Positions 7,863 to 25,717 of a stretch of DNA of 64,000 nucleotides are shown here, piece by piece. Position 1 is the first letter of the stretch; each line of letters starts with the position of its first letter. The stretch covers positions 62,001-126,000 of the forward strand of contig NZ_CP110005.1 in the NCBI RefSeq assembly GCF_025947225.1. The letters run 5' to 3'. The position numbers and the translations under genes are program-made. Below the pieces are notes generated by a model that ran no database searches, was not told the DNA's origin, and worked only from the letters and a program-made list of their open reading frames with translations. This DNA is from Flavobacterium sp. N2270. GTDB taxonomy: Bacteria > Bacteroidota > Bacteroidia > Flavobacteriales > Flavobacteriaceae.

Positions 7863-9686
7863 ATGTCTAACAAAAAAAATAATCATACGTTTCACATTCC
7901 AGTAATGGGATTGGCGTATACAATAGACAGTCCAATAAGAATTGCCCAATATGGCATTTCTTCTGTGGTTTCAATAACTGACGATGACCTTATTGAAAAA
8001 ATGAGAGCTTTTTATAGTGAAAAATTTAGTATTCCTTATCAAGAGATTTCACAAAAATTTAATGATTATCGTGCTGAAAGAATTACTCATTATTTAAATT
8101 TAATGGATACAATTGTAAACGATAAATTTGAAAAATTTAAACATGAATTAACAGAAAGCAAGTCAGCTTTAGAAAACTATATCGCTTTACTTCCAAATAA
8201 ATCAGAACTTAAAAAAGGGCTTCAAGAGTTTATGGAAGAAGGGTTTTCAATTAAAGAAACATTAAAAAATTTTGTTGAAAAAAATGTTTCTGTAGGAGAA
8301 ATTGATGTTAATATCATGACGAAAGTAGATAAAGAAAACTACATTGGAAATGAAAAACTATCAACAGAATTTAATGATGCGCATGCTGCTTTGCGTGGTT
8401 TTGCAAACAGCAATTTAAGCTCATCTGTAGTACTTTCAGCTGGTTTAAATCCCAGGTTATACAGCTATTTTGAAAATTTTTATGATTTCTTTCCAAATGA
8501 AAATTCATTTTTAAAAAAGAAAATAATTTTAAAAGTAAGTGATTATCGTTCTGCATTAATTCAAGGAAGTTTTTTAGCTAAAAAAGGGCTTTGGGTTTCT
8601 GAATACCGAATTGAATCGGGTTTAAATTGTGGCGGTCACGCTTTTGCAACTGACGGGTTATTATTAGGTCCAATTTTAGAAGAATTTAAAGTTAAAAGAA
8701 CCGAATTAATAAATGCAACACATGAATTATTAGTAAAAGCATTAGAAATTAAAGAAATGCCAATTCCTAATGAACCTTTATCTTTAAAAATTACCGCACA
8801 AGGTGGAGTTGGAACAGCTGAAGAGCATGAATTTTTATTAGAAAATTATAATTTAGAAACTATAGGTTGGGGCTCTCCTTTTTTACTGGTTCCAGAAGCA
8901 ACTTCATTAGATAAAGAAACTAGAAACCTTTTAGCAAAAGCAAAAGAAGATGATTTTTATTTGAGTAATATTTCTCCGCTTGGAGTTCCTTTCAATTCAA
9001 TAAAAGGTGTTTCTAATGATTTTTGGAAGCAAAAAAGAATAGACGATAATAAAGCTGGAAGTTCTTGTCCTAAAAAATTCTTAGCATTAAATAAAGAATA
9101 TAATGAAGAAGGTCTTTGTACAGCTTCAAAAAAATATCAAGACAAAAAACTTGCCGAATTAGAAGAAAATAAAGGTCAATTTTCATTAAATGGATTCATA
9201 AAACAAAAAACATTAATTACTGATAAAGCTTGTCTTTGCGTAGGTTTAGCAAATGCATCTTACATGGAAAATGACATGACAATTAAAGGGCAACAACAAG
9301 GAGTTGTTATTTGTCCTGGACCTAATTTGGCATATTTTGACAAAGAGATTTCTTTAGTTGAGATGGTTCAACATATTTATGGAAATACAAACATTTTAAA
9401 AAATAAAAATAGACCAAACATGTTTATTAATGAACTTAAAATGTATGTAGATTATTTTATAAAAGAAATAAACACACTTACAGCAGATAGCACAAATGCT
9501 AAATTAAAAAAGGTAACTAGTTTTAAAAATAATATTATTGAAGGTATTGAATATTATTCAAATTTATTTTCGAACTCAAATTTTTTCAGTTTAGATAAAG
9601 TTACTCTTCTAAAAGAGCTTGAAGATTATAAAAAACAATTATTAATAAACGTAAAAAGTACTGATAAATATCATCTTATAGCTTAA
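7863..9686 (+). CDS. Unrecognised 607-residue TIM-barrel-like protein co-encoded with norCB
   Basis: I do not recognise a named family. The N terminus (FHIPVMGLAYTIDSPIRIAQYG) and the later segments SGLNCGGHAF (near residue 256) and ITAQGGVGTAEEH (about 310-322), followed by GWGSPFLLVPEA, look like an FMN-binding TIM barrel of the nitronate monooxygenase/glutamate synthase kind. A charged helical insertion lies at about 65-150. A C-terminal region carries five cysteines at 402, 419, 457, 459 and 484 (SCPKK, GLCTA, ACLCVG, VICPG), possibly an iron-sulfur site. There is no signal peptide or membrane helix, so it is cytoplasmic. It begins 12 bases after norB, which makes a role in NO or nitrogen-oxide metabolism likely but unproven. 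Confidence 0.7.
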   Translation: MSNKKNNHTFHIPVMGLAYTIDSPIRIAQYGISSVVSITDDDLIEKMRAFYSEKFSIPYQEISQKFNDYRAERITHYLNLMDTIVNDKFEKFKHELTESKSALENYIALLPNKSELKKGLQEFMEEGFSIKETLKNFVEKNVSVGEIDVNIMTKVDKENYIGNEKLSTEFNDAHAALRGFANSNLSSSVVLSAGLNPRLYSYFENFYDFFPNENSFLKKKIILKVSDYRSALIQGSFLAKKGLWVSEYRIESGLNCGGHAFATDGLLLGPILEEFKVKRTELINATHELLVKALEIKEMPIPNEPLSLKITAQGGVGTAEEHEFLLENYNLETIGWGSPFLLVPEATSLDKETRNLLAKAKEDDFYLSNISPLGVPFNSIKGVSNDFWKQKRIDDNKAGSSCPKKFLALNKEYNEEGLCTASKKYQDKKLAELEENKGQFSLNGFIKQKTLITDKACLCVGLANASYMENDMTIKGQQQGVVICPGPNLAYFDKEISLVEMVQHIYGNTNILKNKNRPNMFINELKMYVDYFIKEINTLTADSTNAKLKKVTSFKNNIIEGIEYYSNLFSNSNFFSLDKVTLLKELEDYKKQLLINVKSTDKYHLIA

Positions 9687-11137: not shown

Positions 11138-12304
11138 ATGATTTCTGTTCAACAAGCTATTAACCTATTAAACAATAATATTCCTAAGTCTAAAAAAAAT
11201 CAGCTTTCTCTATTAGATGCGCAAAATCATATTCTTGCAGATGATGTAGTTTCAACTATAAATATGCCTCCTTTTAGACAATCAGCAATGGATGGGTTTG
11301 CATTAAACATTCATGATTCTTTAGTTTACAATTTAATTGGAGAAATTAAAGCTGGAGATTCTCATAAAATGGAATTAAAACCCGGTGAAGCTATAAAAAT
11401 ATTTACTGGAGCTGCTGTGCCAGATTCAGCTAATGCAGTAATACAAGTAGAAAAAACTTCTCTAAATGGAAACAGATTAGAGTTAAACGAAACCATAAAT
11501 TTAAACACAAATATTAGACCCATTGGTGAACAAATAAAGACTAATGAAGTTGCACTTATAAAAGGAACGAAATTGAATGCTGCGTCTATTGGCTTTCTTG
11601 CAGGTCTAGGAATTACTACAGTGACAGTTTATAAAAAGCCTAGTATTGGTATTTTAGTAACAGGGAATGAACTTGTAAAACCAGGAAATAATTTAGAATA
11701 CGGAAAAATCTACGAAAGTAATTCTATAATGTTACAAGCTGCTTTAATAGATTCCGAAGTTAAAAAAAGCACTATTTACGAAGTAAATGACGATTTCTTA
11801 AATACTAAAAATAGTATTAAAAAAGCGCTTAATGAAAATGATATTCTATTAATTTCTGGAGGAATTTCTGTTGGAGATTATGATTTCGTAAAAGGGGCAT
11901 TGAATGAATTACAAGTCGAAACTCTTTTCTACAAAGTAAATCAAAAACCAGGAAAACCTTTATTAGCTGGAAAATTTGAAGATAAATTAGTTTTTGCACT
12001 TCCAGGAAACCCAGCTGCAAGTTTAACTTGTTATTATATTTATGTAAAGCCCATTTTAAAAAAAATAACTGGTGAATCAGAAAACTCTTCTACAATTAAA
12101 AAAGAAATAACGCACAATTTTATAGTAAATAATACACGAAGTCAATTTTTAAAAGCTAATTTTTCAGATAATAATGTTTCGGTTTTATCGCACCAACAAT
12201 CTTCTATGTTAAATACTTTTGCGCTTTCCAATTGCCTAATTCATCTTCCAGAAGGAAACTACGAATTAAAAAAAGGTTCAAAAGTTGACATTTATCATAT
12301 TTAA
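11138..12304 (+). CDS. moeA: MoeA: molybdenum insertase
   Basis: 388 residues, close to the usual length. MoeA inserts molybdate into adenylated molybdopterin in the cytoplasm. Landmarks: PPFRQSAMDGFA (about 49-60), IFTGAAVPDSANAVIQVE, the MoCF-fold motifs TGNELVKPG and ISGGISVGDYDFVK, and ALPGNPAASLTCYYIYVKP. It heads the Moco gene group but is separated from the next gene by a ModE-type operator-promoter, so it may be transcribed independently. The product is needed by the molybdoenzyme encoded at 22127-24343. Confidence 0.95.
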   Translation: MISVQQAINLLNNNIPKSKKNQLSLLDAQNHILADDVVSTINMPPFRQSAMDGFALNIHDSLVYNLIGEIKAGDSHKMELKPGEAIKIFTGAAVPDSANAVIQVEKTSLNGNRLELNETINLNTNIRPIGEQIKTNEVALIKGTKLNAASIGFLAGLGITTVTVYKKPSIGILVTGNELVKPGNNLEYGKIYESNSIMLQAALIDSEVKKSTIYEVNDDFLNTKNSIKKALNENDILLISGGISVGDYDFVKGALNELQVETLFYKVNQKPGKPLLAGKFEDKLVFALPGNPAASLTCYYIYVKPILKKITGESENSSTIKKEITHNFIVNNTRSQFLKANFSDNNVSVLSHQQSSMLNTFALSNCLIHLPEGNYELKKGSKVDIYHI

Positions 12305-12315
12305 TAACATTCTCA

Positions 12316-12345
12316 TTTCGTTATCTTTGTAAAAGCATAACGAAA
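12316..12345 (+). promoter_or_regulatory. ModE-type operator overlapping a -7 promoter element
   Basis: An inverted repeat TTTCGTTAT-N12-ATAACGAAA. The core CGTTAT-N12-ATAACG has the same half-sites and spacing as the Escherichia coli modA ModE operator as I recall it. The -7 element TATCTTTG (12322-12329) lies inside the operator, so a bound protein would block RNA polymerase. The next gene (12356) encodes a ModE-like DNA-binding domain, which suggests autorepression of the Moco operon. Confidence 0.72.
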
Positions 12346-12355
12346 GAAGTTTATT

Positions 12356-12688
12356 TTGAAAATCAAAAGTAAAATTTGGATAGAGTCTAATAACGGAATT
12401 CTTTTAAGTGAAGGCCGCGTGCAATTACTTAAAATGATTGACGAAACAGGTTCTCTTAATAAAGCGTCTAAAGCGTTAAAAATTTCGTACCAAAAAGCTT
12501 GGCGTTTAATTGATGAAGTAAGTAAAACTACAAAGCAACCTATTATAGAAACCAAAATTGGTGGCGCAAAAGGTGGCGGAACAATATTAACTCCTTATGG
12601 AAAATCGTTAATTTCTATTTACGAAACTATAAATAAAGATTGTTGGCAGTTTTTAGACGAACAATTAAAAAAGCATTCTTTATGTTAG
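12356..12688 (+). CDS. ModE N-terminal-domain winged-helix regulator
   Basis: 110 residues, start codon TTG; the first in-frame ATG is internal, in the helix-turn-helix, so TTG is required. The whole protein is the ModE N-terminal LysR-like winged helix: SEGRVQLLKMIDETGSLNKASKALKIS, the recognition helix YQKAWRLIDE, and the wing GGAKGGGTILTPYG. The molybdate-binding TOBE/MOP domains of full-length ModE are absent, so if it senses molybdate or Moco it must do so differently or with a partner. A ModE-type operator lies directly upstream. Its stop overlaps the next ATG by seven bases. Confidence 0.85.
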   Translation: MKIKSKIWIESNNGILLSEGRVQLLKMIDETGSLNKASKALKISYQKAWRLIDEVSKTTKQPIIETKIGGAKGGGTILTPYGKSLISIYETINKDCWQFLDEQLKKHSLC

Positions 12689-13428
12689 TATCTGAAATCT
12701 TAAATTCACCATTATTACTTTTACTATTACCAATAGTAGCCTTTTTATATGCAAGTGTTGGACACGGTGGAGCAAGTGGATATTTGGCGTTAATGAGTTT
12801 GTTTGCTCTACCAATTACATTCATGAAACCAACTGCTTTACTCTTAAATATTTTAGTTTCTGGAATTTCATTTTATTTTTATTACAGAGAGAAGAATTTT
12901 AAATGGAACTTATTTTATCCTTTTGCTATTACATCTATACCATTTTCTTTTTTAGGCGGATTTTTAACAGTGGATTCTAAAATTTATAAAATCATATTAG
13001 GAACATTATTATTATTTGCTGTTTTTCGATTATTAGGTTTCTTCGGAAAAGAAAAGGCTGAATTAAAAGAAATAAATATAAAATACGCATTACTAATTGG
13101 AGCAATAATTGGCTTTTTATCTGGCTTAATTGGTATTGGCGGAGGAATTGTATTGAGTCCGGTTTTACTATTACTAGGTTGGGCAAACATGAAACAAACT
13201 GCTGCAGTTTCTGCACTATTCATATTTGTAAATTCAATTTCTGGAATTTTCGGATTTTTATCAAAAGGAGGTGAAATACCAACTTCCTCTACTCTATTAA
13301 TTGGAATTGTGCTTATTGGTGGTTTTTTTGGAGCGTATTATGGAAGTAAAAAATTCAACAATATTGTATTGCGAAATGTTTTGGCTTTTGTTTTAGGAAT
13401 AGCAATTATTAAACTCTACACTATTTAA
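12682..13428 (+). CDS. TauE/SafE (TSUP) family membrane transporter
   Basis: 248 residues from the ATG at 12682, with about eight helices. The paired TSUP motifs are visible: VGHGGASGYLALMSLF in the first half and IGIGGGIVLSPVLLLLGWANMKQTAAVSA in the second. An upstream ATG at 12640 would add 14 basic residues inside the regulator gene and is less likely. TSUP proteins move sulfite, sulfoacetate, sulfolactate and related anions. No modABC genes are seen here, and this gene sits between a ModE-type regulator and mobA, so molybdate uptake is a reasonable but unproven guess. The stop overlaps the mobA start (TAATG). Confidence 0.84.
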   Translation: MLVSEILNSPLLLLLLPIVAFLYASVGHGGASGYLALMSLFALPITFMKPTALLLNILVSGISFYFYYREKNFKWNLFYPFAITSIPFSFLGGFLTVDSKIYKIILGTLLLFAVFRLLGFFGKEKAELKEINIKYALLIGAIIGFLSGLIGIGGGIVLSPVLLLLGWANMKQTAAVSALFIFVNSISGIFGFLSKGGEIPTSSTLLIGIVLIGGFFGAYYGSKKFNNIVLRNVLAFVLGIAIIKLYTI

Positions 13429-13994
13429 TGAAAAACATTTCAGCATACATAATTGCAGGTGGAAAAAGTTCCAGAATGGGTTCTGATAAAGGTATGTTAC
13501 TTTTAAACGAAACTGTTTTTATAGAACATATTGTAAAAGCATTACAAGAAGCAACTATTCAAAATATAACTATTGTTTCAGCCAATTCAGATTATGATTT
13601 TTTGAACTGTAATCGAATTGAAGATATATATCCTGATAAAGGTCCAGTTGGTGGAATTTTTACTGCTTTGTCACATTCAAAAACAGAACAAAACATTGTT
13701 TTAAGTGTAGATGTTCCGTTAATTTCAGCTGAAATTATTACTTGGTTGATTGCTAATATTGATGATGAAAAGCTAATTACACAAGTAAAAGTTGCAGATA
13801 AAACGAGTCCGCTAATTGCGGTTTATAATAGAAATGCAGTAAATACTTTTGAAGAACATCTAAAAAAAGAGCAATTAAGGTTAAAAATGGTTGTCGAAGC
13901 AATTCCGAATCAAACTATTGAAGTTCCTGAAAAATGGCATTCTTTATTGCAAAACATCAACACAAAAGAAGACTATCAAAACTTAATAAAATGA
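13428..13994 (+). CDS. mobA: MobA: molybdenum cofactor guanylyltransferase
   Basis: 188 residues. Nucleotidyltransferase fold with the signature AGGKSSRMGSDKG at the N terminus (GTP binding) and the acidic SVDVPL. MobA attaches GMP to Mo-molybdopterin, yielding the dinucleotide cofactor used by DMSO-reductase family enzymes, consistent with the Nas/Nap-type enzyme at 22127. It starts on the last base of the TSUP gene and its TGA overlaps the moaD ATG. Confidence 0.92.
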   Translation: MKNISAYIIAGGKSSRMGSDKGMLLLNETVFIEHIVKALQEATIQNITIVSANSDYDFLNCNRIEDIYPDKGPVGGIFTALSHSKTEQNIVLSVDVPLISAEIITWLIANIDDEKLITQVKVADKTSPLIAVYNRNAVNTFEEHLKKEQLRLKMVVEAIPNQTIEVPEKWHSLLQNINTKEDYQNLIK

Positions 13995-14233
13995 CGATAA
14001 CACTAAAATATTTTGGCTTATTAGCTGATATCACAAACACAAACGAAGAGTTGTTTCGTCTTGAAAAATCAGATTTTACAACAAACGATTTGATGCAACA
14101 ATTGAATGAAAAATACACTGGTTTACAAAATGTTTCTTTTGTAATTGCTGTGAATAAATCAATTACCTCAACAGAAATTAATTTAAACAATAACGATACA
14201 ATAGCATTATTACCTCCTTTTGCAGGCGGATAA
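13991..14233 (+). CDS. moaD: MoaD: molybdopterin synthase small (sulfur-carrier) subunit
   Basis: 80 residues, ubiquitin-like, ending in the required Gly-Gly (PPFAGG). The C-terminal glycine is adenylated by MoeB and then thiocarboxylated. The ATG at 13991 overlaps the mobA stop as ATGA and gives the normal MoaD N terminus (MTITLKYFGLLADITN); a longer upstream start would lie wholly inside mobA and is rejected. moeB follows nine bases later. Confidence 0.92.
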   Translation: MTITLKYFGLLADITNTNEELFRLEKSDFTTNDLMQQLNEKYTGLQNVSFVIAVNKSITSTEINLNNNDTIALLPPFAGG

Positions 14234-14242
14234 AAAACAAAA

Positions 14243-15307
14243 ATGGAACATTCAAAACAATATGCACGACAAATGGCTCTTCCTGAAATTGGAAGTCTTG
14301 GTCAGCAAAAAATACTAAACGCAAAAGTGTTGGTTATTGGTGCTGGTGGATTAGGCTGTCCTGTTTTACAAATACTGGCAGCTTCTGGTGTTGGAACACT
14401 TGGAATTGTGGATGGTGATGTTGTGGATGAAACGAATCTTCACCGTCAATTACTTTATACGACTGATGATTGCGGCACTAAAAAAGTGGTTGCTGCAGCC
14501 AATGCAATTCGTAAAATTAATTCAGATGTAAAGGTTAATGTATATCCTGAATTTATTTCTGAAAGTAATATTGCAACTATTGTAAAAGACTATGAAATAT
14601 TAGTAGATTGCACGGATACTATTGCTACACGTTACCTTATTAACGATATAAGTGTTCATTTGGGTAAACCAATGATTTATGCTTCTATTCATAAATTTGA
14701 AGGACAAATTAGTGTTTTTAATTACCAAAACGGACCAACATATCGTTGTTTGTTTCCTGAGAAAAATTCGCAAGAAATTCCAAATTGCGTAACTACAGGA
14801 GTTTTAGGTGTTTTACCTAATACTTTAGGAATGTTACAGGCAACAGAAGTCATGAAAATCATACTTGGAATTGGAGAAGTTCTTTCAGGAAAGTTACTTA
14901 TTTACAATGCTTTGAACATGTCTTTTAACGAATTAGAATTTAGTAAAAACGAAGAGCAAATTCGTATTGGAACTAAAAAAGGAACAGAATTAGAAAGCTC
15001 AGAAAAGCAAAATCATGAAGTCAATAAAGAGGCTTTTTTAGATTTTTGTTCGAATGAAAACTATACGATTATTGATTTACGTGAAGTACATGAAACACCA
15101 AAATTAAAGCATAAAAACATCATCAATATTTCGTTTTTAGAAATAGAAAAGCATATTAATCAATTTCAAAAAGACCAACCTATTATTCTTTTTTGTCAGA
15201 GTGGCATTCGCAGTAAAAAAGCGTTAAAATTTTTTTTAGAAAAAGGATTTACAAACATAGCACATTTACAAAAAGGCATTCAAAAGGTACAATTAGAAGT
15301 TATTTAA
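14243..15307 (+). CDS. moeB: MoeB-type adenylyltransferase with C-terminal rhodanese domain
   Basis: 354 residues in two domains. Residues 1-240 are a ThiF/MoeB/E1-like adenylation domain with GAGGLGCPVLQ (ATP binding), the NLHRQLLY segment and catalytic VDCTD. Residues about 260-354 form a rhodanese domain with active-site loop FCQSGIRS. The fusion suggests one protein both activates MoaD and supplies sulfur to it, as in the eukaryotic MOCS3 arrangement. A single Cys-x2-Cys pair typical of the MoeB zinc site is not obvious. Flanked by moaD and moaE. Confidence 0.92.
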   Translation: MEHSKQYARQMALPEIGSLGQQKILNAKVLVIGAGGLGCPVLQILAASGVGTLGIVDGDVVDETNLHRQLLYTTDDCGTKKVVAAANAIRKINSDVKVNVYPEFISESNIATIVKDYEILVDCTDTIATRYLINDISVHLGKPMIYASIHKFEGQISVFNYQNGPTYRCLFPEKNSQEIPNCVTTGVLGVLPNTLGMLQATEVMKIILGIGEVLSGKLLIYNALNMSFNELEFSKNEEQIRIGTKKGTELESSEKQNHEVNKEAFLDFCSNENYTIIDLREVHETPKLKHKNIINISFLEIEKHINQFQKDQPIILFCQSGIRSKKALKFFLEKGFTNIAHLQKGIQKVQLEVI

Positions 15308-15319
15308 AATATTAGAAAA

Positions 15320-15766
15320 ATGGAAACACCAAAACCTATAAAAAAATCATTTGTTCAAGGACCAATTTCAGCAGAATTCATTGGCAACTCTATTGCTAAA
15401 CACCAAACTAAAACATCTATTGGTGCACATAATATTTTTCTAGGTCAAGTTCGTGCCGATGAAATAGATGGAAAAACAGTTGCAGCAATTGACTATTCGG
15501 CTTATGAAGAAATGGCGGAACAAAATTTTCATGAAATACGTGAAGCTGCTTTTGAAAAGTACGATCTAACTTGTTTACATATTTATCATAGTTTAGGAAA
15601 TGTAAAAGCAGGTGAAATTTGTCTGTTTGTATTTGTATCTGCTCCAAGAAGAAAAGTCGTGTATGAAGCATTGAACTATTTGGTAGAAGAAATTAAAGAG
15701 AAAGTAGCCATTTTTGGTAAAGAAATATTGGAAGACGAAACCTATACTTGGAAAAAAAATAACTAA
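15320..15766 (+). CDS. moaE: MoaE: molybdopterin synthase catalytic subunit
   Basis: 148 residues. MoaE transfers sulfur from MoaD thiocarboxylate to cyclic pyranopterin monophosphate. Landmarks: GAHNIFLGQVRADE, the IDYSAYEEMAE segment, the LGNVKAGE loop, and FVSAPRRKVVYEALNYLVEEIKEKVAIFGKE with the catalytic Lys region. Three bases separate it from the moaC-mogA fusion. Confidence 0.94.
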   Translation: METPKPIKKSFVQGPISAEFIGNSIAKHQTKTSIGAHNIFLGQVRADEIDGKTVAAIDYSAYEEMAEQNFHEIREAAFEKYDLTCLHIYHSLGNVKAGEICLFVFVSAPRRKVVYEALNYLVEEIKEKVAIFGKEILEDETYTWKKNN

Positions 15767-15768
15767 TC

Positions 15769-16683
15769 ATGGTAGATATTACTCATAAAATCATCACGCA
15801 AAGAACAGCAACAGCTCAAGCAATTGTAAAAGTTGGAAGTTCTGAAACTATAAAAGCAATCAAAGACAAAACTGTTCCAAAAGGAGATGTTTTAGAAGTG
15901 GCAAGAACTGCTGGTTTATTTGCGGTGAAAAATACTTCAAACGCTATTCCAGATTGTCATCCATTACCTATTGAATACACAGCAATTGCTTATGATATTC
16001 AAGAAATGGAAATTCATATTGAAATCACTGTAAAAACCATTTACAAAACCGGAGTTGAAGTGGAAGCTATGCACGGAGCAAGTATTGTTGCTTTAACTAT
16101 GTACGACATGCTGAAACCTATTGATAAAAATGTAGAAATTTCAACGGTTAAATTATTACATAAAAAAGGTGGAAAATCTGATTTTAACGATGCTAAAAGT
16201 TTAAATCTAAATGTAGCAGTAATTGTCTGTTCCGATAGTGTTTCAAAAGGAAGTAAACAAGATAGTGCAGGAAAAGCAATCACTTCTAAATTGAATACTT
16301 TAGGTTTAGATGTTACCAATTATATTATCATTCCAGATGAAATTACAGATATTCAAAAAACAGTAAACACATTAAAAGAAAACAAAACAGACTTAGTTAT
16401 TTTAACTGGTGGAACAGGTTTGTCGAATAGAGATGTTACACCTGAAGCCTTAATTCCTCTATTAGACAGAAGAATCCCAGGTATTGAAGAAGCAATTCGT
16501 TCGTACGGACAAGACAGAACTCCTTATGCCATGTTATCTCGAAGTGTGGTTGGATTTATTGGATCTACTTTAGTAATTGCTTTACCAGGCTCTACAAATG
16601 GAGCAAGCGAATCGATGGACGCTATTTTTCCATCTGTATTGCATTTATTCAAAATAATTAATGGTTTTAACCACGGAAAATAA
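15769..16683 (+). CDS. moaCB: MoaC-MogA/MoaB bifunctional fusion
   Basis: 304 residues. Residues 1-150 are MoaC (cyclic pyranopterin monophosphate synthase), with NAIPDCHPLP and GVEVEAMHGASIVALTMYDMLKP. Residues about 155-304 are a MogA/MoaB molybdopterin adenylyltransferase domain with SVSKGSKQDSAGK, ILTGGTGLSNRDVTPEA and ALPGSTNGA. It therefore covers an early and a late step of Moco synthesis in one chain, a fusion known in Bacteroidota. moaA begins one base after its stop. Confidence 0.93.
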   Translation: MVDITHKIITQRTATAQAIVKVGSSETIKAIKDKTVPKGDVLEVARTAGLFAVKNTSNAIPDCHPLPIEYTAIAYDIQEMEIHIEITVKTIYKTGVEVEAMHGASIVALTMYDMLKPIDKNVEISTVKLLHKKGGKSDFNDAKSLNLNVAVIVCSDSVSKGSKQDSAGKAITSKLNTLGLDVTNYIIIPDEITDIQKTVNTLKENKTDLVILTGGTGLSNRDVTPEALIPLLDRRIPGIEEAIRSYGQDRTPYAMLSRSVVGFIGSTLVIALPGSTNGASESMDAIFPSVLHLFKIINGFNHGK

Positions 16684-16684
16684 T

Positions 16685-17680
16685 ATGTTGAAAATAGAAG
16701 ATTTACACGGTCGAGTGCACGATTATTTACGAATTTCAATTACTGAAAATTGTAACCTTCGTTGCACCTATTGTATGCCTGCCGAAGGAATAAATTTGAC
16801 TCCAAAAGCACATATAATGACGGCTGATGAAATTGAAACTATTGCCAAGACATTTGTATCACTTGGAGTAAAAAAAATTCGATTAACAGGTGGAGAACCA
16901 TTAGTTAGAAAAGATGCTCGCGATATTATTGAACGTCTTGGAAAATTAAACATCGATTTAAATATTACCACAAACGGACTTTTAGTTCATGAATATATTA
17001 ATACTTTTAAGGCAGCCGGAATTTCGTCTTTAAATATAAGTTTGGATACTTTACAAAAGGAAAAATTCAAACAAATTACCAGACGTGATCATTATGATAC
17101 ACTTTGGAAAAACATCGAATTACTTTTAGAAAATAATTTTATTGTAAAACTAAATGTTGTATTAATAAAAGGTTTTAATGATTCCGAAATTATTGATTTT
17201 ATTAATCTTACCAAAACCTTAAATATTAAAATTCGATTTATAGAATTTATGCCTTTTAACGGAAACCAATGGGACAAATCGAAATTGGTAACTTATGCAG
17301 AAATTCTAGAAAAAGTAGATAATCATTTTAAAGAAAACACTATTCTTCGAATGGAAGATAAACTAAACGATACTGCAAGAAATCATAAAATAGAATCCTT
17401 TAAGGGAAGTTTTTCGGTAATTAGTTCTGTTACCAATCCTTTTTGTGGTACTTGTAATAGAATTCGTTTAACTGCCGATGGAAAACTAAAAAACTGTTTG
17501 TTTTCCAATACTGAAAATTCCTTATTAGAAACTTTACGAGATGGAAAAAGTATACTTCCTATAATTGAAAAAAATATTAAATCTAAATTTCCTGTTAGAG
17601 GCGGAATGGAAAATGATGCAGAATTTCAAAACCCAAAGCTTTTCTCTAAAAATAGAAGCATGATAAAAATAGGAGGTTAA
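16685..17680 (+). CDS. moaA: MoaA: GTP 3',8-cyclase, radical SAM
   Basis: 331 residues from the ATG at 16685 (an earlier ATG at 16661 lies in moaCB). First step of Moco synthesis. The radical-SAM cluster motif is ENCNLRCTYC near residue 20. The second, substrate-binding cluster is in NPFCGTCNRIRLTADGKLKNC. The chain ends in the conserved Gly-Gly (KIGG) that activates the enzyme. Last gene of the Moco operon; the next promoter carries an activator palindrome 19 bases downstream. Confidence 0.95.
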   Translation: MLKIEDLHGRVHDYLRISITENCNLRCTYCMPAEGINLTPKAHIMTADEIETIAKTFVSLGVKKIRLTGGEPLVRKDARDIIERLGKLNIDLNITTNGLLVHEYINTFKAAGISSLNISLDTLQKEKFKQITRRDHYDTLWKNIELLLENNFIVKLNVVLIKGFNDSEIIDFINLTKTLNIKIRFIEFMPFNGNQWDKSKLVTYAEILEKVDNHFKENTILRMEDKLNDTARNHKIESFKGSFSVISSVTNPFCGTCNRIRLTADGKLKNCLFSNTENSLLETLRDGKSILPIIEKNIKSKFPVRGGMENDAEFQNPKLFSKNRSMIKIGG

Positions 17681-17764: not shown

Positions 17765-19237
17765 ATGAGTAATTTATCACAATCACACAAAATATTATTT
17801 ATAAATACTTTAGCGTTTACAATATGCTTTGCTTGTTGGACACTAAATGGTGTTTTAGTAACCTATTTAATAGACAAGGGAATTTTTAATTGGACTGTTA
17901 TTGAAGCAGGATGGTTAATGGGTATTCCTATTTTATCTGGAGCTTTAACAAGATTGCCAATAGGAATTTTAACCGATAAATACGGTGGTAAAAAAGTATT
18001 TACATGGTTATTGTTTTTATGTGCCATTCCTTTATTTTTAATTCCGTTAGCTGATTCATTTTGGGGATTCGCTATTTTAAGTTTATTATTTGGTGTGGTT
18101 GGAGCGAGTTTCGCTGTAGGTATTGGATATACTTCTGTTTGGTATCCAAAAGAATGGCAAGGTAGAGCTTTAGGTATTTTTGGAATGGGAAATGCGGGTG
18201 CCGCATTAACTACTTTTTTAGCTCCTTCTTTATTAAACTACTTTTCAGAAAGTGATCCTATAAATGGTTGGAAACTTTTACCAATTACTTACGGAATTGT
18301 ACTTGTAGTTATCGGATTCTTATTTGTTTTATTGACAAAAGAGAAAATTGTTCAAGGAGAAACAAAAAACATCAAAACACTTTTACAACCTCTAAAGTCT
18401 ATGAGAGTTTGGAGATTTGGAATTTATTATTTCTTAGTTTTTGGATGTTTCGTAGCCTACTCTCAATGGTTATTACCAAATTTCATGAATGTATACCATA
18501 CAACTTTAGTAATGGGAGGTATGTTTGCAACATTGTTCAGTTTACCTTCAGGAATTATTAGAGCGTTTGGAGGTTATTTATCGGATAAATTTGGAGCAAG
18601 AAAAGTAATGTATTGGGTTTTAGGAACTTCAATGGTTATTAGTTTTTTATTAATGTTTCCTAAAATGGAAGTTTTTACTGCTGGTCCTGGAGTTTTGGCA
18701 GGAAATAATGGTATTGTTACCAATGTTACTTCTGAAAAAATAATGGTTAATGATAAAGAATATGTTATTGCGCCAAAAACAGAAAAACAATTAACTAACA
18801 AACCAATTTTTCCAGTAAAATCATCTTGGCAAGAAGTAATTGTTGCAGAAAACCAATCAGTAAAAAAGAAAGAATTATTAGCAAAAGGTGTTACACATAT
18901 TCAGTTTGAAGCAAACATGTGGGTTTATTTAGTTTTAGTTGTTCTAATTGGTGCTTGCTGGGGAATTGGTAAAGCAGCAGTTTACAAACATATTCCAGAG
19001 TATTTTCCGAATGAAATTGGTGTTGTAGGTGGAATGGTAGGACTTATTGGTGGGCTTGGAGGTTTTTTCGGGCCAATTGTTTTTGGTTACTTATTAACTT
19101 CTACAGGGTTTTGGACAAGTTCGTGGTTCTTCATTTTTGCAGTATCAACAATCTGTTTAATATGGATGCACAAAACAATTATTAAAGCAATTCGTAAAAA
19201 CAATCCTGAATTTACAACACAAATCGAACAAAAATAA
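17765..19237 (+). CDS. narK: NarK-type nitrate/nitrite transporter with an extra soluble insertion
   Basis: 490 residues, major facilitator superfamily, about 12 helices. The NarK/NNP signatures are seen in GVVGASFAVGIGYTSVWYPKEWQGRALGIFGMGNAGAA and GGMVGLIGGLGGFFGP. Between helices about 8 and 9 lies an extra hydrophilic stretch of roughly 80 residues (about 300-382) rich in beta-type sequence; within it, NQSVKKKELLAKG resembles the loop region of biotinyl/lipoyl-type barrel-sandwich domains. NarK proteins import nitrate or exchange nitrate for nitrite. It is co-transcribed with a second NarK and sits ahead of the nitrate reductase genes. Confidence 0.92.
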   Translation: MSNLSQSHKILFINTLAFTICFACWTLNGVLVTYLIDKGIFNWTVIEAGWLMGIPILSGALTRLPIGILTDKYGGKKVFTWLLFLCAIPLFLIPLADSFWGFAILSLLFGVVGASFAVGIGYTSVWYPKEWQGRALGIFGMGNAGAALTTFLAPSLLNYFSESDPINGWKLLPITYGIVLVVIGFLFVLLTKEKIVQGETKNIKTLLQPLKSMRVWRFGIYYFLVFGCFVAYSQWLLPNFMNVYHTTLVMGGMFATLFSLPSGIIRAFGGYLSDKFGARKVMYWVLGTSMVISFLLMFPKMEVFTAGPGVLAGNNGIVTNVTSEKIMVNDKEYVIAPKTEKQLTNKPIFPVKSSWQEVIVAENQSVKKKELLAKGVTHIQFEANMWVYLVLVVLIGACWGIGKAAVYKHIPEYFPNEIGVVGGMVGLIGGLGGFFGPIVFGYLLTSTGFWTSSWFFIFAVSTICLIWMHKTIIKAIRKNNPEFTTQIEQK

Positions 19238-19285: not shown

Positions 19286-20914
19286 ATGGCAGTAAATATT
19301 AAAGATTGGAACGTAGACGATGAAGGTTTCTGGAAGTCTACAGGAAAAAAGATAGCAGATCGAAATCTATGGACTTCAATTCCTGCGTTATTACTAGCTT
19401 TCTCTGTATGGATTATGTGGGGAGTACTAATTAAGTACATGAAAGAATTTGGTTTCAATTTCGGGATGACCGATGGATTAGTTACTGGAACTACAGAATA
19501 TATAAATGCTTTGAAAGAAGTAAATAATCTATACTATACTTTACCAGCAATTGCAGGTTTAGCAGGTGCAACTTTACGATTACCTAACTCTTTTTTAATT
19601 TCATTAGGAGGAGGTAGAAATGTAGTTTTTATAACAACTGCGTTATTACTTATTCCGGCAATTGGTACAGGCATAGCGTTGTCAGATGTAAACTCATCTT
19701 ATCTCTTTTTTGCAGCAATGGCTCTATTTTCAGGACTTGGGGGAGGTAATTTCTCTTCATCAATGAGTAATATATCATTCTTTTTTCCAAAAAAAGCGCA
19801 AGGATATGCTCTTGGAATGAATGCAGGGCTTGGTAATTTAGGTGTTGCTATTATGCAAAAAACAATTCCGTTTATTGTTACATTCTCATTATTTGGTGGT
19901 ACAGCTGGTGCAATTGCAACTGCAAAAGGAGCTCCTTTTGAAGGGATGCAAAATGCTGCATGGATTTGGGTTCCACTTATTGTATTAGCTTCTTTAGCTG
20001 CATTTTTTGGAATGAATAATGTAGATTCAGGAACTCCAAGTATGCCAGATACAGCAAAAGGGGTTTCAAAAACACTCTACATGATTGTACTAGGTTTAAT
20101 AGCTGCTGGTATTGGTGCTTTTATGTTAGTTGGAATTCCGTGGGATTCATTTGGAATGAAAGATTCTGCAATGTGGATTGTACTTCCTTTAGTAATAGTA
20201 CTAACTGTTTTATTAATGAAATATGGTACACCTGCTGATATAAAAGAAAATCTTAATAAACAATTTTCAATACTTGGAGATAAACATAATTGGATTATGA
20301 CAATAATCTATACTATGACTTTTGGTTCATTCATTGGTTTTTCTATGGTGTTCCCAAAATTAGCGCAAGATATATTTGTATACACAAATCCATTAGATCC
20401 TGAATGGGCAAACCCTAACGCTCCTAACATTATGCTTTGGGCCTTCTTGGGGCCAATGTTTGGTGCTTTAGTTAGACCAATTGGAGGAATTCTTTCTGAT
20501 AAAGTAAATAGTGGTGCTAAAATTACAATGTGGAGTACTATTTTTCAAATTATAGCTGCTTTAACTGTTGCCTATTATGTTGTGCAAGCAAGAAGTTCTG
20601 AAACTCCAGAATCATATTGGTGGCCTTTTTTCGGAGCATTCATGGTTTTATTCTTAACAACTGGTATTGGAAACGGTTCAACTTTTAGAAGTATCCCGTA
20701 TATTTTTAGCAAAGAAAAAGCAGGACCTGTTTTAGGATGGACAGCTGCAATTGCTGCTTATGGAGCATTTATTATCCCTAATGTATTTGGGCAGCAAGTT
20801 ACTGCAGGAACACCTGAATATGCGCTATACGGTTTTGCAGTTTATTATTTAATTTGTTTAGTTCTTAACTGGTGGTATTACCAAGGGCCTAAAAGAGAAG
20901 TGGATAATCCATAA
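19286..20914 (+). CDS. narK2: NarK2-type nitrate/nitrite transporter
   Basis: 542 residues, MFS. The nitrate signature is very clear: FSGLGGGNFSSSMSNISFFFPKK then GYALGMNAGLGNLGVA in the first half, and IGNGSTFRSIPYIF in the second. Loops are longer than in the first NarK. Two adjacent but separate NarK types (symporter-like and exchanger-like) often occur together in denitrifiers, fused or side by side. Forty-eight bases separate it from narK, with no terminator seen, so both probably share the promoter at 17699. Confidence 0.93.
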   Translation: MAVNIKDWNVDDEGFWKSTGKKIADRNLWTSIPALLLAFSVWIMWGVLIKYMKEFGFNFGMTDGLVTGTTEYINALKEVNNLYYTLPAIAGLAGATLRLPNSFLISLGGGRNVVFITTALLLIPAIGTGIALSDVNSSYLFFAAMALFSGLGGGNFSSSMSNISFFFPKKAQGYALGMNAGLGNLGVAIMQKTIPFIVTFSLFGGTAGAIATAKGAPFEGMQNAAWIWVPLIVLASLAAFFGMNNVDSGTPSMPDTAKGVSKTLYMIVLGLIAAGIGAFMLVGIPWDSFGMKDSAMWIVLPLVIVLTVLLMKYGTPADIKENLNKQFSILGDKHNWIMTIIYTMTFGSFIGFSMVFPKLAQDIFVYTNPLDPEWANPNAPNIMLWAFLGPMFGALVRPIGGILSDKVNSGAKITMWSTIFQIIAALTVAYYVVQARSSETPESYWWPFFGAFMVLFLTTGIGNGSTFRSIPYIFSKEKAGPVLGWTAAIAAYGAFIIPNVFGQQVTAGTPEYALYGFAVYYLICLVLNWWYYQGPKREVDNP

Positions 20915-21051: not shown

Positions 21052-22101
21052 ATGAAAAATAAAACATTTAATACAAAGGCATTACTTATAGCTACTGGCT
21101 TATCTATAGTTATGGTTTCTTTGGTGTTTTTTGGATCTAGAAATCTACAAAATTTTGATGCAGCATTAATTACCTATTTATTTGGGACAATATTTGCCTT
21201 TTTCGGAATCGTATATAGATATTCCGTTTGGTTGCAACGTCCTCCAACATGGATTTATTTTAAAAGAGGAATTACTTATTTGGTAACTGGAAAAGTGTTT
21301 TCACATCTTTGGTTTGTATCCAAAGAATCTATCGAGAATATAGCTTTTCAGAAATTTATTTACCCAAGAGGAAAGTACCGTTGGATTGCCCATTTTATGA
21401 TAGCAATTGGTTGTACTTCAGCCTTTTTAATTACTATACCACTTACCTTTGGGTGGATACACTTTAGCTTGGCTCCAGGTGGAATTGACATTTATGAAGC
21501 ACACTTCTTTGGTTTTCATATGATGTCATTTAAATTAGGTTCTATTATGGCTTTTATGACTTTTCATGCCTTAAACTGGTCATCATGGTTAGTTATTTTA
21601 GGCTCATTATATTATTTAAGAAGACGATTAACAAATCCAGGTTTAATTGCAACACAAACATTCGAAGGTGATTTACTTCCATTGTTATTATTAATTGCAA
21701 TTTCAGTTACTGGTTTAGGACTTACTTTTTCCTACCAATTCATGAAAGGTTTTGCATTTGATTTCTTAGCTGTAATTCATGCTGTAACCGTAATTATGTT
21801 TTTAATATGGATTCCGTTTGGAAAATTCTTTCATATCATTCAAAGACCAGCTCAAATTGGAGCACATATCTATAAACAAGAAGGAATAAAACAAGGAATG
21901 GCAGTTTGTGAGCATACTGGTAAAGAATATGCAACTAACTTACATGTGAATGATCTAAAAATAGTTACAAAAGAGTTAGGTTTCAACTTTGACAGAGAAG
22001 ATGGATCGTCACATTTAGATTTAAGTCCAGAAGGAAAAAGATCTCGTTTAGCGCAAGCGCATTTAAAAGCAAGATTAGAAGGTGGAAAATTATTCGGTTA
22101 A
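21052..22101 (+). CDS. Membrane cytochrome b subunit of the nitrate reductase set
   Basis: 349 residues with about six helices in the first 280, then a hydrophilic tail. Helical histidines that could bind two hemes b are in RWIAHFMIA, MTFHALNW, AVIHAVTV and GKFFHIIQ, a NarI/cytochrome-b-like pattern. The tail contains MAVCEHTGKEYAT. Its position ahead of the molybdoenzyme, ferredoxin and Rieske genes suggests it takes electrons from menaquinol and passes them to the iron-sulfur partners. I cannot place it firmly in a named family. Confidence 0.7.
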   Translation: MKNKTFNTKALLIATGLSIVMVSLVFFGSRNLQNFDAALITYLFGTIFAFFGIVYRYSVWLQRPPTWIYFKRGITYLVTGKVFSHLWFVSKESIENIAFQKFIYPRGKYRWIAHFMIAIGCTSAFLITIPLTFGWIHFSLAPGGIDIYEAHFFGFHMMSFKLGSIMAFMTFHALNWSSWLVILGSLYYLRRRLTNPGLIATQTFEGDLLPLLLLIAISVTGLGLTFSYQFMKGFAFDFLAVIHAVTVIMFLIWIPFGKFFHIIQRPAQIGAHIYKQEGIKQGMAVCEHTGKEYATNLHVNDLKIVTKELGFNFDREDGSSHLDLSPEGKRSRLAQAHLKARLEGGKLFG

Positions 22102-22126
22102 TAAATAAAGATTAAAAAAAAATAGC

Positions 22127-24343
22127 ATGGCAAAGTTACCTGTTCCAGCAGAAAAAATAATAGAACAATTTGGTCCTAGTTTGAATTATTCACCAAAAGA
22201 TGGATATGAAGGTAGAGATGAGCCAGATAAAGTGGTTGAAACGCATTGTTGCTTTTGTGGTATGCAATGTGGAATAAAGTTATTAGTAAAAACAAACAAA
22301 GTGGTTGGTTTTGAACCATGGATGGAATTCCCATTTAACGAAGGTCGTCTTTGTCCTAAAGGAGTTCAACGCTACTTACAAAATAATCATCCAGATAGAT
22401 TATTAGGTCCAATAAAACGTGTCGAAGGAAAAGGTTTTGAACCTACTTCTTGGGATGAAGCTATGGATAAAACGGTTTCAGAGATAAAACGAATTCAGGA
22501 AAAATATGGAAATGATGCATTTTCTATGCTTTCTGGAGTTTCTTTAACGAATGAGAAAAGTTACCTGGTTGGTAAATTTGCCCGTATCGCTTTAAAGACA
22601 AAAAACCTTGACTACAATGGCCGTTTGTGTATGGTAAGTGCTGGTGCTGGAAACAAAAAAGCCTTTGGTCTAGATAGAGCTTCTAATACTTATGCCGATT
22701 TAGAATATGCCGAAGTAATTATCGTTGCTGGAGCAAACATTAGTGAGACCTTCCCTACTCTAACTCATTGGATTTGGAAAGCAAGAGATAGAGGTGCAAA
22801 AATTATTGTTATTGATCCCCGTGTGATTCCTTTAGCAAGAACTGCTGATGTGCATTTAGATGTAAAACCTGGTACAGATTCGGCTTTATATGGTGCAATG
22901 TTAAAGTATTTGGTTGACAACGACATGCTAGACCATGATTTTATAGATAATTATACTTCTGGTTTTGATATTACTATTGATGCTGTTAAAGATTATACTT
23001 TAGAATGGGCAGAAGGAATAACAGGAATAAAGAAGGAAAAAATTAAAGAAGCAGCTGAACTTTGGGGTAAAGCTAAAACTAGTTTCTTTTTACATGCAAG
23101 AGGAATTGAACACCATTCTAAAGGTGTAGATAATGTTTTAGGTTGCATCAATTTAGTATTAGCAACAGGAAGAATAGGAAGACCGTATTGCGGTTACGGA
23201 ACTATTACTGGTCAAGGAAATGGTCAAGGAGGTAGAGAACACGGACATAAATGTGACCAGTTACCTGGAAATAGAGATATTGAAAACCCAGAACATAGAA
23301 AATATATTTCAGAAGTTTGGGGAATAGATGAAAAAGATATGCCTGGTAAAGGATTGTCTGCATATGAAATTATTGAAGCGATTCATAGAGGTGAAATTAA
23401 AGGTTTAATTTCAATTTGTTTTAATCCTTTAGTATCCTTACCAAATAGCAACTATGTTAGAGAAGCCCTTGAAAAATTAGAATATTATGTGTGTATTGAC
23501 TTTTTCTTAAATGAAACTGCTCGTCATGCTGATATTGTTTTAGCAGGTTCTTTACAAGAAGAAGAAGAAGGAACTACAACTTCTGCAGAAGGTAGAGTAA
23601 TTAGAATACGTCAAGCAGTAACTCCTCCTGGAGATGCTAGAACGGATACTTCTATTATATTAGAATTAGCGGAAAGATTAGGCGTAAAAGATAAATTTAC
23701 ATTCGAAAATAGTGAAGCTATTTTTAATGAATTAAGAGTGGCATCAAAAGGTGGTACTGCAGATTATAACGGAATTACTTATAAAAGAATTGAAGATAAT
23801 ATGGGAATGTTCTGGCCATGTCCTACGGAAGACCATCCAGGAACGCCAAGACTTTGGGAAGATAAAAAATTTAAAACACCAGATGGTAAAGCACACTTTA
23901 ACCCAGCTCCCTATAAATTACCAGGTGAAGTTACAGATGAAAATTATCCTGTAACATTAACGACAGGACGTGTAGTTTCGCAATATTTAAGTGGAACACA
24001 AACACGTAGAATTGGAAAATTAGTAGATCAATACCCTGAGCCTTTATTAGAATTACACCCAGAATTGGCAGCGAAATATGGCATTCAACAAAACGAACTT
24101 ATTAAAGTAAGTACTCGTAGGGGTGAAGGTATATTCCCAGCAAATATTGTAGAAACAATTCGTAAAGACACTGTTTTTATTCCTTACCATTGGTCAGGTT
24201 TAAAATCAGCAAATTTATTGACTCCCGGGACATTAGATCCAATTTCAAAAATTCCAGAATTTAAAGTTTCTGCTTGTAAATTAGAACCCTTAAAAGAACA
24301 AGCAAAACCATCAAGTGAAACCAAAGCATACGCAAGTATCTAA
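22127..24343 (+). CDS. Nas/Nap-type molybdopterin nitrate reductase catalytic subunit
   Basis: 738 residues, DMSO-reductase superfamily. An N-terminal [4Fe-4S] site, CCFCGMQC (about 41-48) and RLCPKG (about 75), precedes the Mo-bisMGD domains. The likely Mo-ligand cysteine is in [12 protein letters not shown] (about residue 168), as in NasA/NapA, not the Asp of NarG. Other landmarks are [31 protein letters not shown] and [17 protein letters not shown]. No Tat or Sec signal is present, so it is predicted cytoplasmic. With the NarK transporters and denitrification genes around it, it is the best candidate for nitrate-to-nitrite reduction here; no narGHI or napAB is seen. A different anion substrate cannot be excluded. 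Confidence 0.85.
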
Positions 24344-24360
24344 TCTATAAAAATTAAAAT

Positions 24361-24930
24361 ATGAATTATACCGATTTTAATAAAAATGAAGAGTTTTTTG
24401 TAGATATGCAACGTTGCATTGGTTGTAAGGCATGTGAAATGGCTTGTGCTGAGTGTGAAACTAACGGGCAAGATTCAATGATTCATGTAAATTATGTAGA
24501 ACGAGCAGAAACAATTCAAACAACAGTACAAGTTTGTATGCATTGTGACGACCCTGTTTGTGCAAGTGTTTGTCCAGCCGATGCAATTTCTAAAGACGAA
24601 TTTGGAATTGTACATACAGCAAATACTGAAAGATGTATAGGTTGTTCTAACTGTGTAATTGCATGTCCTTTTGGGGTTCCAAAGAAAGTAGAAGAATACG
24701 ATTTAATGATGAAGTGTACTATGTGCTACGATCGTACAAGTGTTGGAAAAAAACCAATGTGCGCAACCGTTTGTCCTAGTGGTGCATTATTTTATGGTAC
24801 AAAAGAAGAAATTCAAGAAATGCGTCCAAACAGTTCACCTGTAAACACATTTGTTTTTGGAAAAGAAATTGTCAATACAAAAGTAAATATCATGATGCCG
24901 AAAGGTAGTAATGAGCTAATAATATATTAA
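24361..24930 (+). CDS. Four-cluster [4Fe-4S] ferredoxin-type electron-transfer subunit
   Basis: 189 residues of the NarH/DmsB type. Four Cys groups are visible: [39 protein letters not shown] and CTMCYDRTS...CATVCP, enough for four [4Fe-4S] clusters. No signal peptide is seen. It lies 17 bases after the molybdoenzyme and 10 bases before the Rieske gene, so it is very likely the electron-transfer partner linking the membrane cytochrome b to the catalytic subunit. Confidence 0.9.
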
Positions 24931-24940
24931 ACAGAAGTTT

Positions 24941-25447
24941 ATGCCTGATAAAAACAATAAAGAAAACTGGAAAAAAGATTTTCCTATTCATAAACAAGAT
25001 GCAACACAAGTAAGCCGCCGTGATTTTGCTAAATTTTTAACATTAGTATCTGGAGGTTTAATGGTTGGAAGTGGTTTAGTTGCTGCTAAAGCATATTTAG
25101 ACCCTAAAGAAAAAGTGCAAGGAGAACATTTTATCTGTGATAAAAATGATGTACCTGTTGGCGGAACTAGAGGTTTTGTTATAGAAGGCAGCACTATTCC
25201 GTATATCTTAATTCATTTAGAAAATGGTGAATTTAGAGCATACGAACAAAAATGTACACATTTATCATGTTCTGTTTTTTATGCACCAGGTTCTGGAAAA
25301 ATTGAATGTCCATGTCATAAAGGTTTTTTTGATGCCATGACAGGTGAAGTTTTAGAAGGTCCGCCACCAAGAGCATTGCCAAAACTAGAAGTGTTCTTTA
25401 AAGAAAATAATGTTTTTGTAAAATCATTTCAGGAAGCAATTAGCTAA
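24941..25447 (+). CDS. Rieske [2Fe-2S] protein with twin-arginine signal
   Basis: 168 residues. A twin-arginine motif SRRDFAKFL (about 25-33) is followed by a hydrophobic stretch that may stay as a membrane anchor. The Rieske cluster ligands are CTHLSC and CPCHKGFFDA in the C-terminal half. Rieske proteins accept electrons from quinol at a cytochrome b. The nearest parallel I know is the haloarchaeal nitrate reductase operon with Rieske and cytochrome b genes. It is odd that the Rieske domain would be exported while the catalytic subunit appears cytoplasmic. Confidence 0.88.
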   Translation: MPDKNNKENWKKDFPIHKQDATQVSRRDFAKFLTLVSGGLMVGSGLVAAKAYLDPKEKVQGEHFICDKNDVPVGGTRGFVIEGSTIPYILIHLENGEFRAYEQKCTHLSCSVFYAPGSGKIECPCHKGFFDAMTGEVLEGPPPRALPKLEVFFKENNVFVKSFQEAIS

Positions 25448-25471
25448 TAAGCATAATTAAAAAACAAGATT

Positions 25472-25717
25472 ATGAGTAATTTTAGAACAAGTCAAAACAA
25501 AGCAAATCCTAACAAACTAAATAATATATTATCAACTTTAATATTTGTTTTAATATTAAATGTTAGCTTACAAATTTGGTTGCTCTATACTGCATTAAAT
25601 AATGCACTAGACAATCATAAAGAGATTTTAATTCCAGCATTTATAGCTTCCTTAGTGATATTTTTAATTGGATTTAGCTGGCTTTTTTATTTACCAAAAG
25701 GTAATAGAAGTGCATAA
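25472..25717 (+). CDS. Small two-helix membrane protein at the end of the nitrate reductase operon
   Basis: 81 residues. A polar N terminus is followed by two hydrophobic helices (ILSTLIFVLILNVSLQIWLLY and ILIPAFIASLVIFLIGFSWLFYL) and a short basic tail. I do not recognise a family. It lies 25 bases after the Rieske gene and immediately before a strong terminator, so it is the last gene of the operon. It may stabilise the cytochrome b/Rieske membrane module. Confidence 0.7.
   Translation: MSNFRTSQNKANPNKLNNILSTLIFVLILNVSLQIWLLYTALNNALDNHKEILIPAFIASLVIFLIGFSWLFYLPKGNRSA

Follow-up and report, generated by a model that had tools for sequence, protein, structure and literature searches.

The five-gene cassette

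A compact set of five genes in Flavobacterium sp. N2270 probably encodes a respiratory menaquinol:nitrate oxidoreductase that is bound to the membrane, has its active site in the cytoplasm and conserves energy as NarGHI does; from the sequence, we give this reading a probability of roughly 0.7. The genes lie in a stretch of 64 000 nucleotides from contig NZ_CP110005.1 (positions 62 001–126 000), here called the window, whose own numbering is used for its features. The cassette consists of packed open reading frames (ORFs) on the + strand (bases 21052–25717), with intergenic gaps of 25, 17, 10 and 24 bases. The first gene (21052–22101) encodes a membrane cytochrome b related to NarI and QmoC (349 amino acids) with six predicted transmembrane helices and a C-terminal domain of about 80 residues. 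It is followed by the genes for a molybdenum-bis-pyranopterin guanine dinucleotide catalytic subunit belonging to the NasC-type clade (22127–24343; 738 amino acids; PF04879, PF00384 and PF01568), a four-[4Fe-4S] electron-transfer subunit of the type of DmsB and the formate dehydrogenase (FDH) beta subunit (24361–24930; 189 amino acids), a Rieske [2Fe-2S] protein predicted to be anchored in the membrane by a twin-arginine signal-anchor (24941–25447; 168 amino acids) and a two-helix membrane protein of the DUF6755 family (25472–25717; 81 amino acids; PF20540).

These parts are of known kinds, and as judged from their sequences the combination of a NasC-type alpha, a DmsB/FDH-beta-type beta and a NarI-related gamma subunit with a Rieske protein and DUF6755 does not match any family against which it was tested. 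An earlier reading of the letters alone (the sequence-only reading) had described the same set as a signal-less molybdoenzyme with a Cys ligand, a four-cluster ferredoxin, a cytochrome b, a Rieske protein with a twin-arginine translocation (Tat) signal and a two-helix protein, and the ORFs, motifs and conservation in 87 loci bear this out. Its proposal that a Nas/Nap-like enzyme stands in for Nar or Nap agrees with the finding that the catalytic gene is the only PF00384 match in the source genome (one contig, 2.79 Mb). This Flavobacterium, which has genes for the steps from nitrate to N2, seems to use the cassette as its only nitrate reductase.

Conservation and distribution

The cassette is a real unit and not a chance association, because gene set and order are conserved across the 87 loci examined. 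These were seven loci fetched separately and the best 80 of 212 related loci, with 84 distinct cytochrome b genes; three pairs each represent one genome present in two collections. The 80 bear the name Flavobacterium almost without exception, so this set under-represents the diversity of the family; the nearest named relatives in it are likewise Flavobacterium, with cytochrome b identities of up to 94%. F. johnsoniae CI04 is among the strains represented in the related loci. All five genes were present in a single order and strand in 79 loci, and in four further loci the ferredoxin ORF was recovered on re-scanning, completing the set. The cassette is cut by contig ends in the remaining four. 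In 82 of the 87, the cytochrome b gene has a NarK-like gene next to it. Two separate copies on different contigs were seen in five Flavobacterium genomes, namely sp. 1355, DG2-3, F. ustbae, ACN2 and LHD-85 (locus pairs L030/L073, L055/L057, L059/L089, L069/L076 and L072/L081).

When 395 Bacteroidota genomes were searched with the cytochrome b, 11 matched, eight of them at full length. The other three, weak partial matches of 25–34% identity over short segments (G228, G370 and G047), were excluded as no other cassette gene was found there. DUF6755 was present in exactly the eight genomes with the full-length cytochrome b. The cassette also recurs outside the Bacteroidota, in Deinococcus, where all five genes were found, in unchanged order and with a NarK-like gene after them, on four plasmids. 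The proteins of Deinococcus sp. NW-56 are 38% (cytochrome b), 61% (catalytic subunit), 60% (ferredoxin) and 37% (Rieske) identical to those of the window, and its DUF6755 protein is 34% identical over 50 residues (E value 2e-4). On the remaining three plasmids the fifth gene gave no direct match to the window protein but is 77–94% identical to its NW-56 counterpart. Relatives of the cytochrome b are also named from Armatimonadota and an Egicoccus bin, known here by name only, without gene context. The sequence-only reading had named the haloarchaeal nar operons as the only similar set; the cassette itself is widespread, in Bacteroidota and on Deinococcus plasmids.

Catalytic subunit

The catalytic subunit has no N-terminal signal peptide. 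The FS0 cysteines (41, 44, 48 and 76) and the molybdenum ligand C168 are conserved in 98% or more of 79 distinct sequences, and in the window enzyme C168 is followed by M169. The active-site motifs of FDHs have been described as C-H and C-Q (PMC8808070); no such FDH-type C/U-H or C-Q motif is present, its place being taken by C168-M169. The NarG-type FS0 histidine described in PMC8301774 is also absent, FS0 having four cysteines.

The top NCBIfam match was assimilatory NasC, at 835.9 bits and below the cut-off of 1100, and the second was Fdh-alpha, at 614 bits and below the cut-off of 666. NapA models scored 267.5 and 279.5 bits against cut-offs of 930.55 and 904. The NasC cut-off is not a clean test, because a nirB-linked Paenibacillus enzyme passes it (1165 bits) but a nirBD-linked D. 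aquaticus enzyme scores only 663; the Deinococcus cassette scored 787. The best-scoring PDB chains were FDHs and their relatives.

A phylogeny of the molybdoenzyme, proposed as a check in the sequence-only reading, was built from 18 chosen rows and midpoint-rooted, with several long branches. The nine cassette enzymes formed a single clade (support 100/100) and fell, together with the enzymes of Paenibacillus, D. aquaticus and two actinomycetes, in a NasC-type clade of 13 rows (100/100) whose internal order lacks resolution. Outside it lay two FDHs, NapA, a Curtobacterium enzyme and an alphaproteobacterial Nas linked to nirBD. In all nine cassette rows the molybdenum-ligand cysteine is followed by Met, as it is in NapA and in those Nas rows whose motif could be read; one FDH row has His, and the Curtobacterium and Haloterrigena FDH reference rows have no readable motif at this point.

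Cytochrome b and ferredoxin

The cytochrome b was aligned with 135 representatives (less than 84% mutual identity, 320–400 amino acids) of 328 proteins, which were the 120 best hits from each of three partly overlapping searches. The candidate heme ligands are H114, H172, H243 and H261, the last of which lies near the predicted cytoplasmic side and is invariant in all 136 sequences. Charged loops place the C-terminal domain in the cytoplasm, again as a prediction. The window protein has no Pfam family match, hence none to a bc1-type family, and its relatives match Nitrate_red_gam. By sequence, then, it is related to NarI and QmoC and is not of bc1 type, and the cassette shares with NarGHI a membrane cytochrome b of NarI type. 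The membrane cytochromes b of the QmoC/EtfD group have other redox enzymes as partners and are not known to serve nitrate reductases. A structure model from a 10-sequence alignment (mean predicted local distance difference test score 61.5) was dropped and one from the 136-sequence alignment (91.8) was kept; QmoC was not among the structure-comparison matches of either list, which carries no weight either way. Two CxxC pairs, zinc-ribbon or rubredoxin-like, occur at residues 286–328 in 76 of the 136, and in the other 60, including the window protein, only C286 is kept. Public records call the cytochrome b 'MFS transporter' in many genomes (for example at 12774–13886 in locus L112) and also 'hypothetical protein' or 'nitrate reductase gamma subunit', and the catalytic subunit 'molybdopterin oxidoreductase family protein'.

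The ferredoxin has neither a signal nor a transmembrane helix. Across 69 distinct sequences 17 cysteines are conserved, 16 of them within the four cluster motifs. It scored 102.5 bits with DmsB and 37.3 bits with narH, for which the cut-off is 524, and so does not qualify as NarH. The claim in the sequence-only reading that the set does not resemble NarGHI is not supported for the membrane subunit, which is related to NarI and QmoC.

Rieske and DUF6755 proteins

A twin-arginine motif is present in the Rieske protein in all 83 Bacteroidota sequences from uncut loci and in all four from Deinococcus. Since a conserved W-K-x-D-F tail precedes this motif, the sequence suggests an uncleaved Tat anchor with the N-terminal tail in the cytoplasm. 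The cluster loops are CTHLSC and CPCHKGFF, and the disulfide cysteines are kept. In bc1 Rieske proteins a Ser and a Tyr raise the redox potential. Here Gly and Phe occupy these positions in all 83 sequences, in keeping with a Rieske protein, presumably periplasmic, of the low-potential, menaquinone type. The genome has no Rieske match apart from the cassette gene; the weaker PDB relatives of its product include AioB Rieske proteins. The DUF6755 protein has two hydrophobic helices and scored 42.0 bits with PF20540 (gathering score 27). DUF6755 was not found in the open-access literature searched.

Genome content and neighbouring genes

No match to the siroheme nitrite/sulfite reductase family (NIR_SIR, PF01077) was found in the source genome (G000), and for this reason it would seem to lack the siroheme-dependent route of sulfate assimilation as well. 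The cassette enzyme is the only PF00384 match in three of the eight cassette genomes (G000, G285 and G273). In four others (G021, G170, G202 and G316) an additional molybdoenzyme ORF of 1177–1201 amino acids lies 7–15 kb from a NIR_SIR ORF of 837–844 amino acids, a nirB-sized gene; we take the two for an assimilatory nas-nirB cluster in its own right. Each of these four has a further weak PF00384 match on an ORF of 1020–1041 amino acids, and G316 another on one of 821 amino acids; G279 has two, both on one 582-amino-acid ORF. NIR_SIR is absent from G279 as well as G000. In G285 and G273 it was found only on ORFs of 717 and 705 amino acids, which are probably sulfite reductases. This distribution supports a respiratory rather than an assimilatory context, in line with the membrane link and respiratory setting suggested in the sequence-only reading. 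Elsewhere in the source genome lies an operon (one NrfD match) that, with its ORFs named from their translations, we read as alternative complex III with a cytochrome oxidase.

The neighbours of the cassette in the window are shown by their translations and family matches. Two NarK-family nitrate/nitrite transporter genes (17765–19237 and 19286–20914, both +), with NCBIfam scores below the cut-off, lie upstream of the cassette. They are preceded by a run of molybdenum-cofactor genes and neighbours on the + strand (11138–17680), in which moaA (16661–17680, +) was confirmed by an NCBIfam match and moeA, modE-like, mobA, moaD, moeB, moaE, moaCB and tauE-like genes were named by reading translations only. 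Denitrification-related genes in the window are the end of nirK, norB- and norC-like genes (our reading of a gene of the COX1 family and one for a cytochrome c) and a gene for a Sec-type NosZ; a CBB3-type cytochrome c and anaerobic ribonucleotide reductase are also encoded. The nirK portion (71–679, +) encodes the C terminus of a copper nitrite reductase, to which a cytochrome c domain is fused; the match of 53 bits covers the last 61 residues only. Between it and a SCO1-like gene is a gene for a sulfatase-modifying-factor/EgtB-like protein (749–1606, +), and homologues of these three are each found in 15 of the 87 cassette loci, duplicates counted. Directly 3′ of the norB-like gene is a gene for a 607-amino-acid protein (7863–9686, +) with no family match in Pfam (E≤1e-6) or NCBIfam (E≤1e-10). 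A homologue with 72% identity is found near the cassette in locus L046.

Proposed mechanism and alternatives

We infer that the five products form one complex. On the periplasmic side, the NarI-like cytochrome b and the Rieske protein would jointly oxidise menaquinol, with the Rieske protein probably taking the first electron of the quinol beside the cytochrome. Electrons would pass via b heme(s) across the membrane to the four-cluster subunit, then to FS0 and the molybdenum centre of the NasC-type subunit, which would reduce nitrate to nitrite in the cytoplasm. The NarK proteins would bring nitrate in and carry nitrite out to the periplasmic NirK. Energy conservation like that of NarGHI would follow because protons would be released outside and consumed inside. 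A point that weighs against a neat denitrifier story is that the NosZ cut-off was passed in two of the eight cassette genomes compared with 127 of the 395 sampled; a link between the cassette and N2O reduction was looked for in these counts and not found.

A possible but distinctly less probable variant is a Q-loop-like split, in which one menaquinol electron goes via the b heme(s) to cytoplasmic nitrate, while a periplasmic cytochrome c receives the other from the Rieske protein and feeds NirK, Nor or Nos. The Rieske protein accompanies the cytochrome b in all 83 uncut loci and has no second match in the genome, and the window encodes periplasmic c-type partners in the NirK fusion and the CBB3-type cytochrome c. 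However, the cassette includes no cytochrome c gene, six of the eight cassette genomes have no NosZ above the cut-off, and the putative alternative complex III could feed the periplasmic reductases, which weakens this role. It is doubtful, slightly more so than the split itself, that the cassette represents a separate energy-conserving class from the NasC lineage, one pairing a Rieske protein with a NarI-like cytochrome b, lacking a bc1 core and dividing menaquinol electrons between cytoplasmic nitrate and periplasmic denitrification.

The remaining alternatives are all improbable. In arsenite oxidase the Tat signal of the Rieske subunit carries the partner subunit across the membrane, and the cassette Rieske protein, alone among the five in having a Tat motif and with AioB proteins among its relatives, might do the same for the catalytic and ferredoxin subunits, so that nitrate would be reduced outside. 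The adjoining NarK-like genes, the predicted cytoplasmic C-terminal domain of the cytochrome b and the invariant H261 near that side make this unlikely. An assimilatory enzyme with an unusual membrane donor is no more credible: its best NCBIfam match is NasC, nirB-linked enzymes are among the nearest non-cassette rows in the tree, and NasC/NasA have been stated to act exclusively in assimilation (PMC10100899), but we reject it on genome content, given the lack of NIR_SIR here, the separate nas-nirB-like pairs in four related genomes and the nirK, nor-like and nosZ genes of the window. Least likely of all is an FDH or a reductase of another oxyanion, despite the Fdh-alpha score and the PDB matches. 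FDH identity was rejected on the active-site motif (C-M, against the C-H and C-Q of PMC8808070), the position of both FDH rows outside the clade of cassette and NasC enzymes, and the gene context, in particular the NarK linkage.

Novelty and implications

No description of the five-part enzyme was found in the open-access literature, in a search that mostly did not cover subscription journals. To that extent the term 'undescribed' in the sequence-only reading stands, although single genes have been annotated piecemeal in public genomes. If the reading as a respiratory menaquinol:nitrate oxidoreductase is correct, the cassette supplies a respiratory nitrate reductase to Flavobacterium and Deinococcus without Nar and Nap, and a lineage called exclusively assimilatory (PMC10100899) has been put to respiratory use. 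The enzyme is probably miscounted in surveys of nitrogen genes, because its catalytic gene best matches assimilatory NasC and its cytochrome b is named 'MFS transporter'. In wastewater genomes assimilatory nitrate reduction genes co-occur with nosZ (PMC11409646); we speculate that part of this may be due to the cassette enzyme. The pairing of a Rieske protein with a cytochrome b of NarI rather than bc1 type would make a Rieske role outside bc complexes directly testable.

Comparison with known systems

The cassette resembles NarGHI in its NarI-related membrane cytochrome b, its NarK partners and, as predicted, the reduction of nitrate in the cytoplasm. It differs in its NasC-type catalytic subunit with four-Cys FS0 and C-M motif, in having a DmsB/FDH-beta-like ferredoxin where NarGHI has NarH, in the additional Rieske and DUF6755 proteins, in the extra transmembrane helix and C-terminal domain of its cytochrome b, and in the absence of narJ from the cassette. 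Unlike Nap, the enzyme has no signal peptide and the cassette has no cytochrome c gene. The NasC-type assimilatory reductases of Bacillota, Actinomycetota and Deinococcota share its clade and C-M motif, but in two annotated loci they are linked to nirB(D), and no cytochrome b, Rieske or DUF6755 protein is listed there. In Paracoccus denitrificans a Rieske-type protein, NasG, serves NasC (PMC3475470), though the NasB-NasG-NasC system is NADH-driven, NirB-linked and without a membrane cytochrome b.

In the haloarchaeal nar systems a Rieske protein (NarB) and a cytochrome b (NarC) likewise stand beside a nitrate reductase, NarGH (PMC2483277, PMC8301774). NarC has 486 amino acids and, according to PMC8301774, is a homologue of the bc1-complex cytochrome b; the catalytic subunit is NarG. 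The analogy drawn in the sequence-only reading, and with it a bc1-type cytochrome b, was rejected because the cassette protein is related to NarI and QmoC. Rieske and cytochrome b genes also lie beside a Nap-type enzyme in Caldithrix abyssi, but there with periplasmic NapA, NapM and NapGH and a cytochrome b described as similar to that of bc1 (PMC5317091). In Methanoperedens, the Rieske/cytochrome b complex that has been suggested to supply electrons to nitrate reductase is homologous to bc1/b6f, with cytochromes c and an outward-facing Nar-like enzyme (PMC4683180). Nar1 of Streptomyces coelicolor depends on the bcc-aa3 supercomplex and co-purifies with parts of it (PMC7931247). Although Nar1 is of NarGHI type and the supercomplex is a separate complex, it may serve, by analogy, as a partial precedent for a nitrate reductase that leans on a Rieske-containing complex.

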